Virus record (IMG/VR): IMGVR_UViG_3300045110_000358
Span: 1-23,324 of that record
DNA: 23,324 nucleotides
Source: a virus
Direction: 5' to 3' (one strand)
In this document: in pieces, positions 1,514-22,989 of the stretch
How positions within the stretch are numbered: position 1 is the stretch's first letter
How the letters are laid out: each line of letters begins with the position of its first letter
Notes under the pieces: model-generated
Told to the model about the DNA's origin: nothing
Seen by the model: only the letters and a program-made list of their open reading frames with translations
Database searches by the model: none
Made by a program: the position numbers and the translations under genes

Positions 1514-2886
1514 TGCTCGACACGCTCAAGCGATTCCTGGCGATCGAGCCGCTCCACGAGCGCGACATGGTCCTGGCGACACCGTTCGACGAGTACCCGC
1601 CGCTCGCCACCCAGCTCGCCAACATCCGCGCCTATCACCAGCCCGGGTTCGCCGTGAGCATCCGCGAGGCGCTCGGCGTGCCGGCCATCTTCGGCGCCGT
1701 CAACCTCATCTCCAACCTCGTCGGCTCGCTGTCGATGAAGGCGTACCGCGGCGAGGTCGAGCTGGCGCCCGACGACCGGCCGCGCCTGATCGTGCGCCCC
1801 GACCCGTTCCAGATCCCCCGCGAGTTCTACCGGATGACCAGCTACAACATCGCGTCGCGGGGCGAGGCCGACTGGTGGGTCGCGGCGCGTGACGGCGCGG
1901 GGCAGGCCCTGTCGCTCATCAACATGCCGCCGCACGAGGTGACCATCGAGGAGAACGAGCGCGACCTCCGCTACCCGATCGTCAAGTGGCGCGACCGGCC
2001 CATCCCCAACGAGGACTTCCGCCAGCTTGTCTACAGTCGCGAGCCGGGGCAGCTCCGCGGTGTCGGGCCGCTCCAGATGTGCGGCGCGGCCATCAGCGTC
2101 GCCGTCGAGGCCCAGCTCTGGGCGAGCAACTTCTTCTCCTCGGGCGGTGTCCCGCCGCTCGTCATCAAGTCGGCCGTCGAGCTCGACGGCAGCACCGACC
2201 CAGACACCGGCCTGTCCGAGGCGCAGGCCCTCAAGGCCGCCTGGATGGCCGGCGACAACAACGTGCCCAAGGTCATCGATCCCGGCATCGACGAGATCCA
2301 GCAGCTCGAGTACAACCCCGCGGGCGCCCAGATGCTGACCGCCCGCGGCTTCCAGAACGCCGAGGTGGCGACCATGTTCAACATGGATGCCACGCTCCTC
2401 AATGCCGCCATCAGCGGCTCGTCGGTGACCTACCAGAACGTCGGCTCCGAGTTCGACAAGTTCCTCCGGATGTGCCTGCGGCCGAACTACATGGAAGCGA
2501 TCGAGCAGACGATGTCCGATCTCCTGTCGCGCTCGACGGTGGCCCGCTTCAACTCCGATTCACTGACCCTGGCCGACATCAAGACCCGCTACGACGTCTA
2601 CGGCAATGGCATCGAGCACGGCATCATCAGCGCCGACGAGGCACGCAGCTTCGAGGGCCTGGCGGCCGGCGACGTCGAGAACGCGGCCGTCGCGCCGGCG
2701 CCACCGCAGGCCATCCCGGGACCGTCGGGCTTCCGCTCCGCGGCGGTCGAGGTCCGCTGCCAGAACATGGTCCCCAAGCGCCGGGCCGGGGTCATGCGCA
2801 TCACCGCCTGCGGCAAGCTGCTCTCGACCGACGGCAAGGACCCCGGCTGGTGTCCCCGCTGCCGCCAGGCCACCACGGCGGCGTGA
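1513..2886 (+). CDS. portal protein with C-terminal zinc ribbon
   Basis: A 457-residue portal of the HK97/SPP1-like group, forming the ring through which DNA enters the head and on which the terminase docks. Recognition rests on position right after TerL, on length, and on typical portal stretches: EALGVPAIFGAVNLISNLVG near 45-65, SREPGQLRGVGPL near 180, SSGGVPP near 218, and GSSVTYQNV near 300 (the region of the tunnel or crown helices). Unusually, the last 45 residues carry four cysteines, C416, C433, C447 and C450 (ACGKLL and CPRC), resembling Com-type zinc fingers of Mu-like phages. The start ATG 1513 overlaps the terminase stop; the frame is open further upstream only as a shadow of terL. 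It overlaps the next gene by GTGA. Confidence 0.88.
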   Translation: MLDTLKRFLAIEPLHERDMVLATPFDEYPPLATQLANIRAYHQPGFAVSIREALGVPAIFGAVNLISNLVGSLSMKAYRGEVELAPDDRPRLIVRPDPFQIPREFYRMTSYNIASRGEADWWVAARDGAGQALSLINMPPHEVTIEENERDLRYPIVKWRDRPIPNEDFRQLVYSREPGQLRGVGPLQMCGAAISVAVEAQLWASNFFSSGGVPPLVIKSAVELDGSTDPDTGLSEAQALKAAWMAGDNNVPKVIDPGIDEIQQLEYNPAGAQMLTARGFQNAEVATMFNMDATLLNAAISGSSVTYQNVGSEFDKFLRMCLRPNYMEAIEQTMSDLLSRSTVARFNSDSLTLADIKTRYDVYGNGIEHGIISADEARSFEGLAAGDVENAAVAPAPPQAIPGPSGFRSAAVEVRCQNMVPKRRAGVMRITACGKLLSTDGKDPGWCPRCRQATTAA

Positions 2887-3473
2887 CCGACGTCTCGATC
2901 GCCATCATGGCCCACCCTGACCGGCGGGTCTGGGTCGACGAGCTCCAGGCGCAGCTCGGGCCGGTGCCCGTGGCATGGGCGCGACCGCCGTGGGCCACCG
3001 TGCGCGATCGTGAACCCATCTGGCGCACCTGCCGGCAGGCCATGCTGCTGCATGACGACGCGCCGTTCCACTGCGTGATCCAGGACGATGCCGTGCTGGG
3101 ACACGACTTCGGGGCGCGCCTGGAGCGTCTCGTCGAGGCCGGCGACTACATCTACTGCCTCTTCTGGCGTCCCCACACCGGATACCCGATGGAAGCGCGG
3201 CTCGCCCAGATGAACGAACCCGACGGCTACTTCAAGAAGCTCGGCGGCTCGATGTTCGGGGTGGCCGTCGTCTATCCGACCCGGTTCATCCCCGAGATCG
3301 TCAAGGACGGCGACCGGGAGGGGCGCGCCGCGGACGACATGCGGGTCAAGAAGTGGGCCATCCTCAACCACGTCGAGACGTACATCCCGCTGCCCAGCCT
3401 CGTCGACCACCGCGGCGATACGAGCTTTCACGATCCGAGCCTGCCGATCCGCAGGGCATGGCGCTTCGCATGA
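2883..3473 (+). CDS. glycosyltransferase-like protein, first of a pair
   Basis: A 196-residue protein starting at GTG 2883, which overlaps the portal stop as GTGA. It begins with a beta strand followed by MAHPDRR and carries CVIQDDAVLGHDF (QDDA at 67-70), which resembles the nucleotide-sugar and metal-binding DxD region of small phage glycosyltransferases. A GSMFGVAVVYP stretch and a late HRGDTSFHDP complete a GT-A-like pattern. Known actinophage enzymes of this type modify virion proteins or DNA; the target here cannot be read from sequence. Its place between portal and capsid suggests co-expression with structural genes and hence possible capsid or tail glycosylation, which is inference. 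It ends in ATGA overlap with a second, different glycosyltransferase. Confidence 0.7.
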   Translation: MTDVSIAIMAHPDRRVWVDELQAQLGPVPVAWARPPWATVRDREPIWRTCRQAMLLHDDAPFHCVIQDDAVLGHDFGARLERLVEAGDYIYCLFWRPHTGYPMEARLAQMNEPDGYFKKLGGSMFGVAVVYPTRFIPEIVKDGDREGRAADDMRVKKWAILNHVETYIPLPSLVDHRGDTSFHDPSLPIRRAWRFA

Positions 3474-4138
3474 GCATCCTCGTCCTCTGCCCCACCCGTG
3501 GACGACCGCGCCAGACGGCCGAGATGGCAGCGTCGTTCCTGGCAACGGCCGAGCTGCCGACGACGTCGCTGCTGCTGGTGGTCGACCTCGACGACCCGGA
3601 GGGTGACGGCTACGTCGACCTCGTCGCTCCGGGCGTGGGCCTCGTGGGCGTCGAAGGCGGCAGCCTGACGGCGGCCACCAACCAGGCCGTGGTCCGGGTC
3701 TGGGACGAGGCCGACATCGTGGGTCATGTCGGCGACGACCACCGCTTCCTGACCCCCGGCTGGGATCGCATGGTCACCGAGGCCCTGGCCGACCCGGGCG
3801 TGGCCTACGGCGACGACGGCTACTGGCACGAGGCGCTTGGAACGGCCTGGTTCGCCTCGACGTCGATCGTCCGAAGGCTCGGCTGGCTGGCCCTCCCCGT
3901 GTCGGACCACTACGGCATCGACAATGCCTGGATCGACATCGGGCGGGCCCTCCATCGCCTCACGTACCTGCCCCGGATGCACATCAGCCATCCGGGCGTG
4001 CCCGAGCAGAAGGCCCACCCCGACGCCATCTTCACCCGGGCCCAGCTCCACCGTCGGGCCGATGCCGCGGCGTACTACCGCTGGCGCGACAGGGGCGGCC
4101 TGGCGGGCGACGTCACGAGGTTGACGACGGTAGGCTAG
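3470..4138 (+). CDS. glycosyltransferase-like protein, GT2-like, second of a pair
   Basis: A 222-residue protein with a GT-A fold signature: MSILVLCPTRGRP at the N terminus (a nucleotide-binding start typical of GT2-like phage enzymes), VDLDDPEG near 38-45, GSLTAATNQAV near 63, and VGHVGDDHRFLTPGWD near 83-98, where GDDH replaces the usual DxD. A DHYGIDNAWIDIG stretch near 145-157 fits the acceptor-site acidic region. ATG 3470 is chosen because it forms ATGA with the previous stop; an in-frame ATG at 3458 is possible. It is not a duplicate of the upstream gene by eye, so donor and acceptor may differ. No sugar-synthesis genes are present, so host nucleotide sugars would be used. It is the last gene before the 204-base leader of the capsid operon. 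Confidence 0.75.
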   Translation: MSILVLCPTRGRPRQTAEMAASFLATAELPTTSLLLVVDLDDPEGDGYVDLVAPGVGLVGVEGGSLTAATNQAVVRVWDEADIVGHVGDDHRFLTPGWDRMVTEALADPGVAYGDDGYWHEALGTAWFASTSIVRRLGWLALPVSDHYGIDNAWIDIGRALHRLTYLPRMHISHPGVPEQKAHPDAIFTRAQLHRRADAAAYYRWRDRGGLAGDVTRLTTVG

Positions 4139-4142
4139 GCGC

Positions 4143-4209
4143 GGAGGCCGCGACCGCGGCTCGCCTCCGGGTCGGGCTCTACTTCCCGGTGCAGAGCCCC
4201 GCGGCCTCC
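4143..4209 (+). other. predicted structured RNA/DNA element between glycosyltransferase and capsid operon
   Basis: A perfect 10-bp outer stem joins 4143-4152 (GGAGGCCGCG) to 4200-4209 (CGCGGCCTCC). Inside it, a second perfect 7-bp stem pairs 4174-4180 (GGGCTCT) with 4193-4199 (AGAGCCC) around a 12-base loop, and GACC 4152-4155 can pair with GGTC 4170-4173. Together this is a three-helix junction immediately upstream of a promoter. No U-tract follows, so it is not a classical terminator, and there is no T-arm, so it is not a tRNA. It may end or process the upstream transcript, or act as a small RNA. The structure is read from sequence; the role is unknown. Confidence 0.5.
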
Positions 4210-4210
4210 A

Positions 4211-4240
4211 TTGACTGTCATTGTGCCAGTGGCGTAGCAT
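4211..4240 (+). promoter_or_regulatory. sigma70-type promoter candidate for the capsid operon
   Basis: TTGACT (4211-4216), an 18-base spacer and TAGCAT (4235-4240) lie in non-coding DNA about 100 bases before the capsid gene. A second candidate promoter at 17671 has the same core (TTGAC and TAGCA). A start near 4247 would give a leader of about 95 bases carrying the ribosome-site hairpin described separately. Confidence 0.55.
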
Positions 4241-4293
4241 CCGGCCCAGTCGAATAACCCGCCGGTATGCGTGCTCTCGAAGCCGCCGGCCAG

Positions 4294-4337
4294 AGGCCCT
4301 CCGCGCACGTGCCCTCAAGCGCATCGCAGGAGGGCCT
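4294..4337 (+). promoter_or_regulatory. hairpin sequestering the capsid ribosome binding site
   Basis: AGGCCCTCC (4294-4302) is the exact reverse complement of GGAGGGCCT (4329-4337), with a 26-base loop. The 3' arm contains nearly all of the ribosome site AGGAGGG (4328-4334) of the protease-capsid gene, whose ATG is at 4343. Folding would block initiation. It sits in the leader of the promoter candidate at 4211. The inference is translational control of capsid synthesis, by a protein, an alternative fold or a translating upstream ribosome. Confidence 0.55.
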
Positions 4338-4342
4338 TGTCC

Positions 4343-5938
4343 ATGACCGATTGGTTCGACCTTCTCGACGCATCCACGGCGCCGGATGCATCCCTTGAGC
4401 TGCGCAGCGCGGAGCAGCGCGAGATCGCGATGCGCATCGTCCCGTGGGACGTGCCCGCCATCACCCGGGCGGGCCCCGAAGTCATCGTGCGCGGCGCCTT
4501 CGGCGAGGTGGACCCGTCGAAGGTCGTGCTCCAGCTCGAGCATGAGAATCCGCCCGCCGGCAAGGGCATCACCTACGAGGACCGCGCCGACGGCGCGTGG
4601 ATGACGTTCAAGGTGAGCAAGACCCAGCGGGGCGACGACATCCTGACATTGGCCGGCGACGGTGTCGCGACCGGCGCGTCGATCACCTTCCAGGACGCCC
4701 CCGACGGCGTCGAGCTGTACCGGGCCGCCGGTCGAACGATGCGGATCGTCCGCAACGCCGCCCTTCGGGCGGTGAGCACCACCTGGCGCCCGACATGGGC
4801 CGAAGCCGCCGTCCAGTCCATCCGATCGCAAGGAGATACGACCGTGTCCGAAACCACCGCGCAGCCGGAAGCGCCGGCCATCGACTTCGGCCCGCTCATC
4901 GCCGCCATCGAGGCGCAGGGCGCCACCCAGACGGCCGCCCTCGCGCCGCTCGCCAACAAGGTCGCCGACCTCGAGGAGCGGGCCCGCAAGGACATCATCT
5001 TCCCGGAGGAGAAGCCCGAAGAGAACGTCCGCAGCCAGATCGGCCCGTGGATGGAGGTCTCGCTCAAGCTCCTGTCGGGCGAGCGTGTCGCCCAGGACCA
5101 GCTCCGGGCGTGGACCGACATCGTCACCACCGACAACCTCGGCGTCGTCCCGAGCGCGTACATCGACACGCTGATCGGCATCACGCCCAACCGGCGGCCG
5201 TTCCTCAACTCGACCCGCCGCCTGTCGCTGCCGCCGGTGGGCATGCATCTCATCGTCCCCAAGATCGTCACGCCACCGACGACCGGCACGCAGTCGACCG
5301 AGAAGTCGCTCATCACCTCGACCGCGACGAGCATCACGACCGCGACCTACGACTCGGTGACCATCGCCGGCGGCGGTGATCTTTCCTTGCAGTTGGTCAA
5401 GCGCAGCGGGCCCTCGTTCCTCGAGCTCTACCTCGCCGAGCTGCTGGCGTCGCTCAGCAAGAACGCCGAGATCGCGGCCCTGACCGCGGTGTTCGTCGGC
5501 GACAGCTCGGGTGGCACGCTCGATCCCGCGAACGCATCCTTCGGCGCCGCGTGGCGCAACGCCGCCGCGGTCAACCAGCAGGCCGACACCATCTGGCTGT
5601 CGTCCGAGGGCGTGGCGGCGTTCATCGACGCGAAGGCCACGACGACCAATACGCCGCTGTACTCCAACCTCGCCGGCAACTTCACGGCGGGCGGCGGGCC
5701 CGGTGGCACGATCTCCGGCCTTCGACCGGTCTGGGTGCCGGCACTTGACACGGTGGCCGGCGACATCGACGCCATCATCGGCCCGTCGTCCGGGTTCGCC
5801 TGGACCGAGGACGGCACCTACACCCTCCAGGTCGACGTGCCCTCGAAGGCCGGCCGCGATGTCGCGGTCGTGTCCATGTTCTGGTTCGCGCCGCTCTACC
5901 CGACGGCGTTCACCAGCTACACGATCACCGGGTCGTAG
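4343..5938 (+). CDS. fused prohead protease and major capsid protein
   Basis: A 531-residue polyprotein. Residues 1-165 look like an HK97-type (U35) prohead protease: PWDVPAITRAGPEVIVRGAF near 34-53, catalytic-type His in LQLEHEN (H67) and Ser in GVATGASITFQ (S113). Residues about 168-230 are rich in alanine and charged residues and helical, fitting a scaffold (delta) domain. The rest (about 235-531) is an HK97-fold major capsid protein, with a PNRRPFLNSTRRL stretch and the KAGRDVAVVSMFWF ending. ATG 4343 follows AGGAGGG by 8 bases; an in-frame GTG at 4271 lacks a ribosome site. An internal ribosome site and GTG at 4844 would make capsid protein alone in excess. Next gene starts at the base after the stop. 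Confidence 0.85.
   Translation: MTDWFDLLDASTAPDASLELRSAEQREIAMRIVPWDVPAITRAGPEVIVRGAFGEVDPSKVVLQLEHENPPAGKGITYEDRADGAWMTFKVSKTQRGDDILTLAGDGVATGASITFQDAPDGVELYRAAGRTMRIVRNAALRAVSTTWRPTWAEAAVQSIRSQGDTTVSETTAQPEAPAIDFGPLIAAIEAQGATQTAALAPLANKVADLEERARKDIIFPEEKPEENVRSQIGPWMEVSLKLLSGERVAQDQLRAWTDIVTTDNLGVVPSAYIDTLIGITPNRRPFLNSTRRLSLPPVGMHLIVPKIVTPPTTGTQSTEKSLITSTATSITTATYDSVTIAGGGDLSLQLVKRSGPSFLELYLAELLASLSKNAEIAALTAVFVGDSSGGTLDPANASFGAAWRNAAAVNQQADTIWLSSEGVAAFIDAKATTTNTPLYSNLAGNFTAGGGPGGTISGLRPVWVPALDTVAGDIDAIIGPSSGFAWTEDGTYTLQVDVPSKAGRDVAVVSMFWFAPLYPTAFTSYTITGS
4831..4846 (+). promoter_or_regulatory. internal ribosome site and in-frame GTG start for capsid protein
   Basis: AGGAG (4831-4835), preceded by A, stands 8 bases before GTG 4844-4846, in frame with the protease-capsid fusion at codon 168, exactly between the protease-like part and the scaffold/capsid part. 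Initiation here would give a 364-residue scaffold-capsid protein (4844-5938) without protease. Confidence 0.6.
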
Positions 5939-6247
5939 ATGGCAAGCTGGCCCGAGCTGGACGAGCTCAAGCAGGTCCTCGACGTCACGTCCCCCGACTG
6001 GGACGGCGACCTCGGCGAGGATCCGACGCGGCTTGCCCGGCTCCTGTCGGCGGCGATCGCACGGGTCAAGATGGACGTCGGCGACTGGGATGAGGACGTC
6101 GATACCCCCGACGATGCCCTCTCCCAGGCCGCCCTCCGTATGGCCGAGCTGATGGCCCTCCGGCCCGAGGTCGCCCCGGCGGCCCTCGGCGATCCGACGT
6201 ATGCACGGCTCCTCAAGGGCCATCGTCGCGCCTTCGGCGTGGCATGA
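5939..6247 (+). CDS. head-tail connector (adaptor) protein
   Basis: A 102-residue, mostly helical acidic protein that starts immediately after the capsid stop and overlaps the next gene by ATGA. Content and position match phage head-completion adaptors of the HK97 gp6 / SPP1 gp15 type, which form a ring beneath the portal. It has the usual layout: an N-terminal helix (ELDELKQVLD), a pair of helices (RLARLLSAAIARVKMDVGDW) that pack in the ring, and a C-terminal region (SQAALRMAELMALRPEVAP). No catalytic motif is expected. The assignment relies on gene order and helical pattern rather than on a diagnostic motif. Confidence 0.7.
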   Translation: MASWPELDELKQVLDVTSPDWDGDLGEDPTRLARLLSAAIARVKMDVGDWDEDVDTPDDALSQAALRMAELMALRPEVAPAALGDPTYARLLKGHRRAFGVA

Positions 6248-17537: not shown

Positions 17538-17579
17538 GCCGGGGGGCTTCCGAGGCTCGATACCGAAGAGCCCCCCGGC
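17538..17579. terminator. strong 11-bp hairpin, possible terminator or origin-type structure
   Basis: GCCGGGGGGCT (17538-17548) and AGCCCCCCGGC (17569-17579) are perfect reverse complements around a 20-base loop. No U-run follows on either strand, so rho-independent termination is not certain. It could separate the two divergent operons or be a protein or replication signal. Confidence 0.4.
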
Positions 17580-22410: not shown

Positions 22411-22989
22411 GTGCAAGCCGTGACGAGTCGCCCCTGCGAGCGAAAGTGCCCGGAGCCTGACGGCTGCGGCCTGTGGAAGCACCACAGTCGCTTTCACTCA
22501 CGGCGACGCCCCAACAGTACTGTTGGGGGTTGGGAGTTCGATCGGCTCTGCCGAGATTGTCAGCAGAAGCAGCGCAATGAGCTGAAGAACGCCGACCGTC
22601 CTAGGGCAATCATCGAACAACGGGCAGCGCAACGAGCTCGCGCAGCAGGCGAATCCACGGCCTTCTTCATGGTCAACATGAACTACGAGGCGTTGGTTCC
22701 GATCCTCCGAGCCCTGATGAGTCCAGAGGGTCGATGTCCATGTTGCGGGCACGGGTTCGTCAATGAGCGCGACATCCAGATCGAGCATCGCTTTCCGCCG
22801 CGTGGTCCGCGGGATTGGGCTCGACTCCATGCCCGCAATCTCAGCTTCGCCTGCGGGTCGTGCAACAGGACGAAAGCGGCGAAGGAGCCGGACCTCTGGC
22901 TTGATGAGCAGGAAGGCGCCCGTCTAAGCAACGAACTTGAGCGCACGACTGTCGAACGGTTGATGGCCCAGCCGACGCTCGGCTTGTGA
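22411..22989 (+). CDS. HNH endonuclease with N-terminal zinc region
   Basis: A 192-residue protein. The C-terminal part is an HNH nuclease: CPCCG (C109/C112), IEHRFPP with H126, and CGSCNRTK (C148/C151, N152). The N-terminal part has paired cysteines C9, C13, C19 and C47/C50 (CRDC) that resemble the zinc region of phage and bacterial CxxC...FH...C..C proteins. A basic helical linker (RAIIEQRAAQRARAAG) joins the two. GTG 22411 has no clear ribosome site; GTG 22420 is an alternative. GC is visibly lower than in the early operon, for example 33 of 60 bases at 22561-22620 against 45 of 60 at 19801-19860, which suggests separate ancestry. It overlaps the next HNH gene by GTGA. Confidence 0.78.
   Translation: MQAVTSRPCERKCPEPDGCGLWKHHSRFHSRRRPNSTVGGWEFDRLCRDCQQKQRNELKNADRPRAIIEQRAAQRARAAGESTAFFMVNMNYEALVPILRALMSPEGRCPCCGHGFVNERDIQIEHRFPPRGPRDWARLHARNLSFACGSCNRTKAAKEPDLWLDEQEGARLSNELERTTVERLMAQPTLGL
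22509..22528 (+). repeat. 20-bp perfect palindrome inside the HNH gene
   Basis: CCCCAACAGTACTGTTGGGG is its own reverse complement with no loop. It falls in codons 33-40, in the loop between the two cysteine pairs of the HNH protein, so it could be a binding site or a mobile-DNA trace as well as coding sequence. Confidence 0.6.

Follow-up and report, generated by a model that had tools for sequence, protein, structure and literature searches.

Hairpins that bury a ribosome-binding site (RBS) are a known form of control in phage mRNAs. The MS2-type operator is a hairpin that lies over an RNA-phage ribosome site and is bound by the coat protein, and the lambda pR'-tR' late leader sets a promoter, a short leader and a hairpin ahead of the late genes. 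In phage T4, helices bury the RBS of e, soc, 49 and I-TevI, and late e transcripts lack the 5' strand (PMC3014915). The SAS/ESAS elements of cluster K mycobacteriophages are built on a 13-bp motif, with 11–19 copies per genome, at non-structural genes (PMC3203893). The locus described here lies in the window, the whole 23,324-nt stretch of DNA analysed (IMG/VR virus record IMGVR_UViG_3300045110_000358), from an uncultured phage. On sequence evidence, we consider it probable, at roughly 0.6, that the capsid operon is controlled at translation by a conserved structured leader RNA, which is present as a single copy in the searched contigs and depends on an opener acting in trans.

The operon's first gene after the leader encodes a protease-capsid fusion (4343–5938, + strand, as for all leader features below; 531 aa) with matches to PHROG 2263 (E = 9e-51), PHROG 80 and Pfam S78. 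Its Shine-Dalgarno sequence (SD), AGGAGG (4328–4333), lies in the 3' arm of a hairpin, P3 (4293–4338; arms 4293–4302 and 4329–4338), which is drawn from folding and comparative evidence; A4328 is bulged, and the paired GGAGG (4329–4333) sits 9 nt upstream of the ATG at 4343. An earlier reading made from the sequence alone (the sequence-only reading) had reported that AGGCCCTCC (4294–4302) pairs with GGAGGGCCT (4329–4337) over this ribosome site. The two are exact reverse complements, and the real hairpin is bigger, with the 9-bp stem lengthened by a G4293-U4338 pair and with inner helices at 4303–4305/4325–4327 (GCG/CGC) and 4309–4312/4319–4322 (GTGC/GCGC) around a CCUCAA loop (4313–4318). P3 folds at -28.7 kcal/mol (z = -5.4; none of 200 shuffles is equally stable), and the surrounding region of 120 nt has z = -3.1. 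Opening the SD at the capsid start costs 16.0 kcal/mol, more than at any other of the 30 SD-plus-start sites counted over the two strands of the window. A 9-bp inverted repeat within 60 nt is nothing rare in the GC-rich window, where 56 pairs of at least 9 nt occur; what sets the hairpin apart is that it lies on the SD and is backed by comparison with relatives. P3 is predicted to sequester the ribosome-binding site of the protease-capsid gene.

A sigma-70-like promoter candidate precedes the leader (4211–4240; -35 TTGACT at 4211–4216, an 18-nt spacer and -10 TAGCAT at 4235–4240), in agreement with the earlier proposal of a promoter at 4211 and a leader of about 95 bases. The -10 box ends ~6 nt before the leader start, which carries the 5' motif CAGUCGAAUA (4247–4256; consensus ~CARYYGAAYA), and the promoter position implies a leader of ~96 nt. 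The motif occupies the same place in 16 leaders from the window and its relatives; a -10-like hexamer lies 4–8 nt upstream of it in all 16, and more than half have a TTGAC-type -35 at 16–18 nt from the -10. A best promoter score of at least 9 is reached by 44% of leaders and by 0.16% of random places. We infer from these features that the capsid transcript starts at ~4247.

Searches with capsid and portal yielded a single relative, L002/L003 (capsid 86–87% identical), and a protein scan of genome contigs for relatives gave no matches; further contigs were reached through the short gene that follows the capsid (window 5939–6247), and more still through its alignment. Sixteen leaders were readable (the window, L003, L120–L125, L127, L137, L138, L141–L144 and L146), from phage contigs whose capsids are 37–87% identical to that of the window; being mutually related, they do not amount to 16 independent observations. 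L003 is closest: if gaps are counted, its identity to the window is ~95% over the leader and first 11 codons (4247–4375), the differences being four substitutions and three single-base, frame-shifting indels, and the four-fold sites of the two capsid genes are only 75.5% identical. The common plan is a -10 box, the 5' motif, usually a P1-P2 stem, and then an SD-burying hairpin, in leaders of 79–122 nt, with an ATG, GTG or TTG start codon 7–10 nt past the SD-bearing arm. TTG starts are found at 7 of the 16 first genes (L122, L124, L125, L137, L138, L141 and L142), where the start codon fuses with a U-rich stretch downstream of the hairpin.

Hairpin arm sequences vary widely among the leaders, and pairing is preserved. 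Type A hairpins (window, L003, L123, L137, L141, L142 and L146) resemble GGCCUCC-GCGCAUGUGCCCAAAGCGCAGCGC-A-GGAGGUC, type B hairpins (L122, L124, L125, L127, L138, L143 and L144) are of the GGACCUU-UGAGACC...GGUCUU-GGAGGUCC type, and the hairpin of L120 and L121 uses GUGACCUC...GAGGUCAC. The first gene after the leader is the capsid gene except in L127, L141, L143, L144 and L146, which have a small ORF there, immediately ahead of the capsid gene. Three of these ORFs, set after the leader hairpin, encode small proteins with a SAP domain (L127, 2744–2986; L141, 2203–2427; L144, 2658–2849). The hairpin stays at the operon's first gene even when the product of this gene is a small protein with a SAP domain instead of the capsid, and it also precedes the other small ORFs, so the element belongs to the operon head rather than to the capsid coding sequence.

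Freeing the SD costs a median of 12.7 kcal/mol (minimum 8.1) across the 16 leaders and 4.4 kcal/mol (maximum 10.8) across 47 other starts of the same contigs, a difference (p = 3e-9) that is uncorrected for relatedness, overstates independence and uses a control statistic devised only once the first leaders were known. Choice of the 16 start sites was made by eye with the SD as a guide, a bias towards SD hairpins that affects covariation and the model matches to held-out leaders less. RNAalifold, run unguided on the seven type A leaders, recovered P1 (GCCGG 4261–4265 with CCGGC 4286–4290), P2 (GCU 4273–4275 with AGC 4281–4283) and P3, with changes on both sides in six pairs. Pair counting also showed the pairing of the arms to be kept in relatives, with 87% of cells paired in the seven leaders compared with 40–50% if slid. 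The covariation score was 0.248, against 0.180 in shuffles, and neither this score nor the observed value for paired cells was reached in any of 500 shuffles. With only seven, related sequences, this evidence for covariation is good, not conclusive.

Applied to six type B leaders, RNAalifold returned a small stem and the SD hairpin, with four double-change pairs. Model R2, built from the seven type A leaders and run against 393 kb, ranked the held-out L120, L122, L121 and L143 right after the sequences it was trained on, each where a leader was expected (E 3e-4 to 0.02), placed L144 lower and missed L124, L125, L127 and L138. No second convincing leader copy was found in the 17 contigs searched; a weak match on the opposite strand of L123's contig had an E value of 0.26. 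The P1-P2 stem as a whole (4261–4290 in the seven-leader RNAalifold structure) is usually, not always, present among leaders. Its stability in single sequences is nothing unusual, and a double change in L003 replaces a G-C pair of P1 by A-U.

The surroundings of the leader have features of their own. Two glycosyltransferase-like genes (PHROG 854 and 14945) lie between portal and capsid (2880–4138), an unusual location for such a pair in a head module this compact. A second inverted repeat, GGAGGCCGCG / CGCGGCCTCC (4143–4209; 47 nt apart), lies after the glycosyltransferase stop and ahead of the capsid promoter, and possibly ends or insulates upstream transcription; its 3' part also occurs upstream of the L120/L121 promoter, and the stretch is absent from L003. 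The terminase large subunit (134–1513) is mosaic relative to that of L003 (436–1860): the two are 65% identical overall and ~90–94% identical in the C-terminal part, which adjoins a 95% identical portal gene, a pattern that suggests recombination within the gene. Elsewhere, the window carries a perfect 11-bp GC-rich inverted repeat, GCCGGGGGGCT / AGCCCCCCGGC (17538–17579; 20 nt apart), where no long ORF is clear, and a perfect 20-bp palindrome with no spacer, CCCCAACAGTACTGTTGGGG (22509–22528), within a predicted gene (22411–22989).

Transcription from the capsid promoter, beginning at ~4247, would yield a ~96-nt leader consisting of a single-stranded 5' motif, usually the small P1-P2, and a terminal P3 that holds the first gene's SD. 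This SD would be locked in the free RNA, and the default would be poor initiation; freeing the SD costs 9–20 kcal/mol in full leaders. A riboswitch-like leader would combine an aptamer domain with two mutually exclusive folds; the P1-P2 domain is present, and an SD-free fold of near energy was not found: the folding analysis gave no mutually exclusive alternative fold and no SD-free fold within ~9 kcal/mol, so the RNA is unlikely to flip by folding alone. Productive capsid synthesis would require P3 to be opened or bypassed in trans, the opener most likely being a phage or host RNA-binding protein, or ribosomal S1 or a helicase acting on the pyrimidine-rich bases that follow the hairpin; a standby site that allows bypass would be an alternative to a trans-acting opener. 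A locked SD at the gene for the most abundant protein would be counter-intuitive unless an opener exists. More tentatively, and as a possibility to which we give limited credence, the RNA family may switch translation of the whole capsid operon by sensing a phage signal, for instance an assembly intermediate or the capsid or SAP-domain protein in free form. If true, such a leader would represent feedback control best known from the RNA-phage coat protein. The proposed leader makes RNA-level timing and dosing of coat-protein synthesis in tailed phages testable.

Of the alternatives, the one that survives best, although unlikely, is that P3 is an intrinsic terminator over the ribosome site, with capsid expression through antitermination in a lambda pR'-tR' layout. 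Most relatives have a U-rich stretch past the stem (L124/L125 UUUGUUUU, L142 UUUCUCUU, L141 UUCUUUU), which is lengthened by the UUG starts (7/16), and the listed SD-start spacers are almost free of A and about half U in most relatives, against 13% U in control spacers. However, the window, L003, L120, L121 and L123 have weak tails (T-score 0.8–1.7, compared with 3.8 in L124), and a simple terminator scan was negative in the four leaders tried. With a T-score of 1.5, the window copy was rejected as an intrinsic terminator. The U tail is not universal, unlike SD pairing, and this universality points to translational occlusion as the leading function; it is plausible that termination adds a layer in a few relatives (L124, L125, L142 and perhaps L141).

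A processing or stability element, whose stem would be cut by RNase III or would shield the 5' end, with translation coming after cleavage, seems quite improbable. RNase III cuts phage leaders in lambda N and T7, and long stems occur in type B (19 pairs in L143), but several stems, including that of the window, are bulged with fewer than 14 consecutive pairs, and cleavage within the 3' arm would harm the SD. We give still less weight to a timing lock of the T4 gene e type, in which the hairpin would block read-through transcripts and a later promoter between the arms would omit the 5' arm. RBS-burying helices have precedent in T4 e, soc, 49 and I-TevI, with late transcripts lacking the 5' strand in the case of e (PMC3014915), read-through from the portal and glycosyltransferase genes is likely in the window, and P3 does place the SD in a stable helix. 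A transcript start between the arms was nevertheless rejected: judged from sequence only, the -10 box lies upstream of the entire leader in 16/16 cases and both arms would be in the transcript, and a scan of the window gave no promoter-like site between the arms.

The sequence-only reading had suggested another opener, a ribosome translating a leader frame that begins at ATG 4267, overlaps the capsid start and ends at 4398, and had proposed switch-like control of capsid translation. The frame exists in the window (4267–4398; 43 aa) and passes through the stem, but it has no SD, its ATG is CTG in L003 and the three one-base indels there shift it. A frame crossing the hairpin is missing from 7/16 leaders, and only one leader of 16 has such a frame with an SD. 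Leader-peptide attenuation requires a conserved translatable short frame through the stem, and none was found among the leaders; the frame is judged not functional and opening of the stem by its translation is very improbable. What stands of the proposed switch is occlusion of the ribosome site by the stem, in a leader of the length proposed and with pairing that relatives keep by compensatory changes, the comparison that the sequence-only reading had suggested; the leader-peptide part does not stand. Least credible is a DNA palindrome acting as an operator or other DNA-binding site with incidental RNA folding: nine-base inverted repeats are common in the GC-rich window, but the arms diverge freely with pairing kept, the 3' arm is always the SD, and G-U pairs in the conserved helices break DNA symmetry and point to RNA.

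No Rfam family matches the leader above the curated score; a mir-557 match (23.9 bits, cut-off 93) was judged to be chance, as were matches from DNA-pattern scans for the hairpin or CAGTCGAATAACCC, which lacked capsid context except in L003. In GTDB, model R1 gave one match in 296 genomes of one phylum, with no phage genes near it, and a capsid profile gave two distant matches in 396 + 251 genomes, at which the leader was not seen; one of these lies near a contig end. Cultured phages have capsids only ~27% identical to that of the window. Among distant relatives with similar capsids, the leader is absent from the cultured phage McGonagall and from a phage with a separate protease gene, and cultured phage MiaZeal has no comparable SD hairpin. 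Matches to the SAS/ESAS sequence GGGATAGGAGCCC all had three mismatches and were fewer than expected by chance, and this candidate was rejected. The covariance model could be used to find the element elsewhere, and the element could serve as a small translational-control module.

The open-access literature searched gave no description of a conserved structured leader that locks the ribosome site of a capsid operon in a phage group. What appears new, as judged against Rfam and open-access papers, is a conserved, multi-stem, SD-burying leader at the capsid operon of tailed phages, behind its own promoter. Like translational riboswitches and protein-responsive leaders, it places an expression platform that sequesters the SD after a 5' domain, but it has no ligand, no clear alternative fold and no Rfam match. 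The lambda pR'-tR' leader likewise combines a promoter, a short leader and a hairpin before late genes, whereas the present hairpin holds the SD and the window copy is without a terminator tail. The MS2-type operator resembles it in that a phage ribosome site is covered by a hairpin with a bulged A, whose apical part is conserved; the present hairpin belongs instead to a dsDNA tailed-phage operon and precedes the capsid or a small gene, and its binding protein would be hypothetical. SAS/ESAS are also conserved elements with inverted repeats just before phage translation starts (PMC3203893), in contrast to which the present leader is single copy, stands at a capsid operon and is conserved by structure. 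The T4 RBS hairpins similarly place a phage SD and/or start codon in a helix that lowers initiation (PMC3014915). In T4 e, however, a late promoter at the 5'-strand site allows the late mRNA to escape, whereas the window promoter lies upstream of the whole leader, and compared with the T4 hairpins the present leader is multi-stem and stands at the head of a capsid operon.
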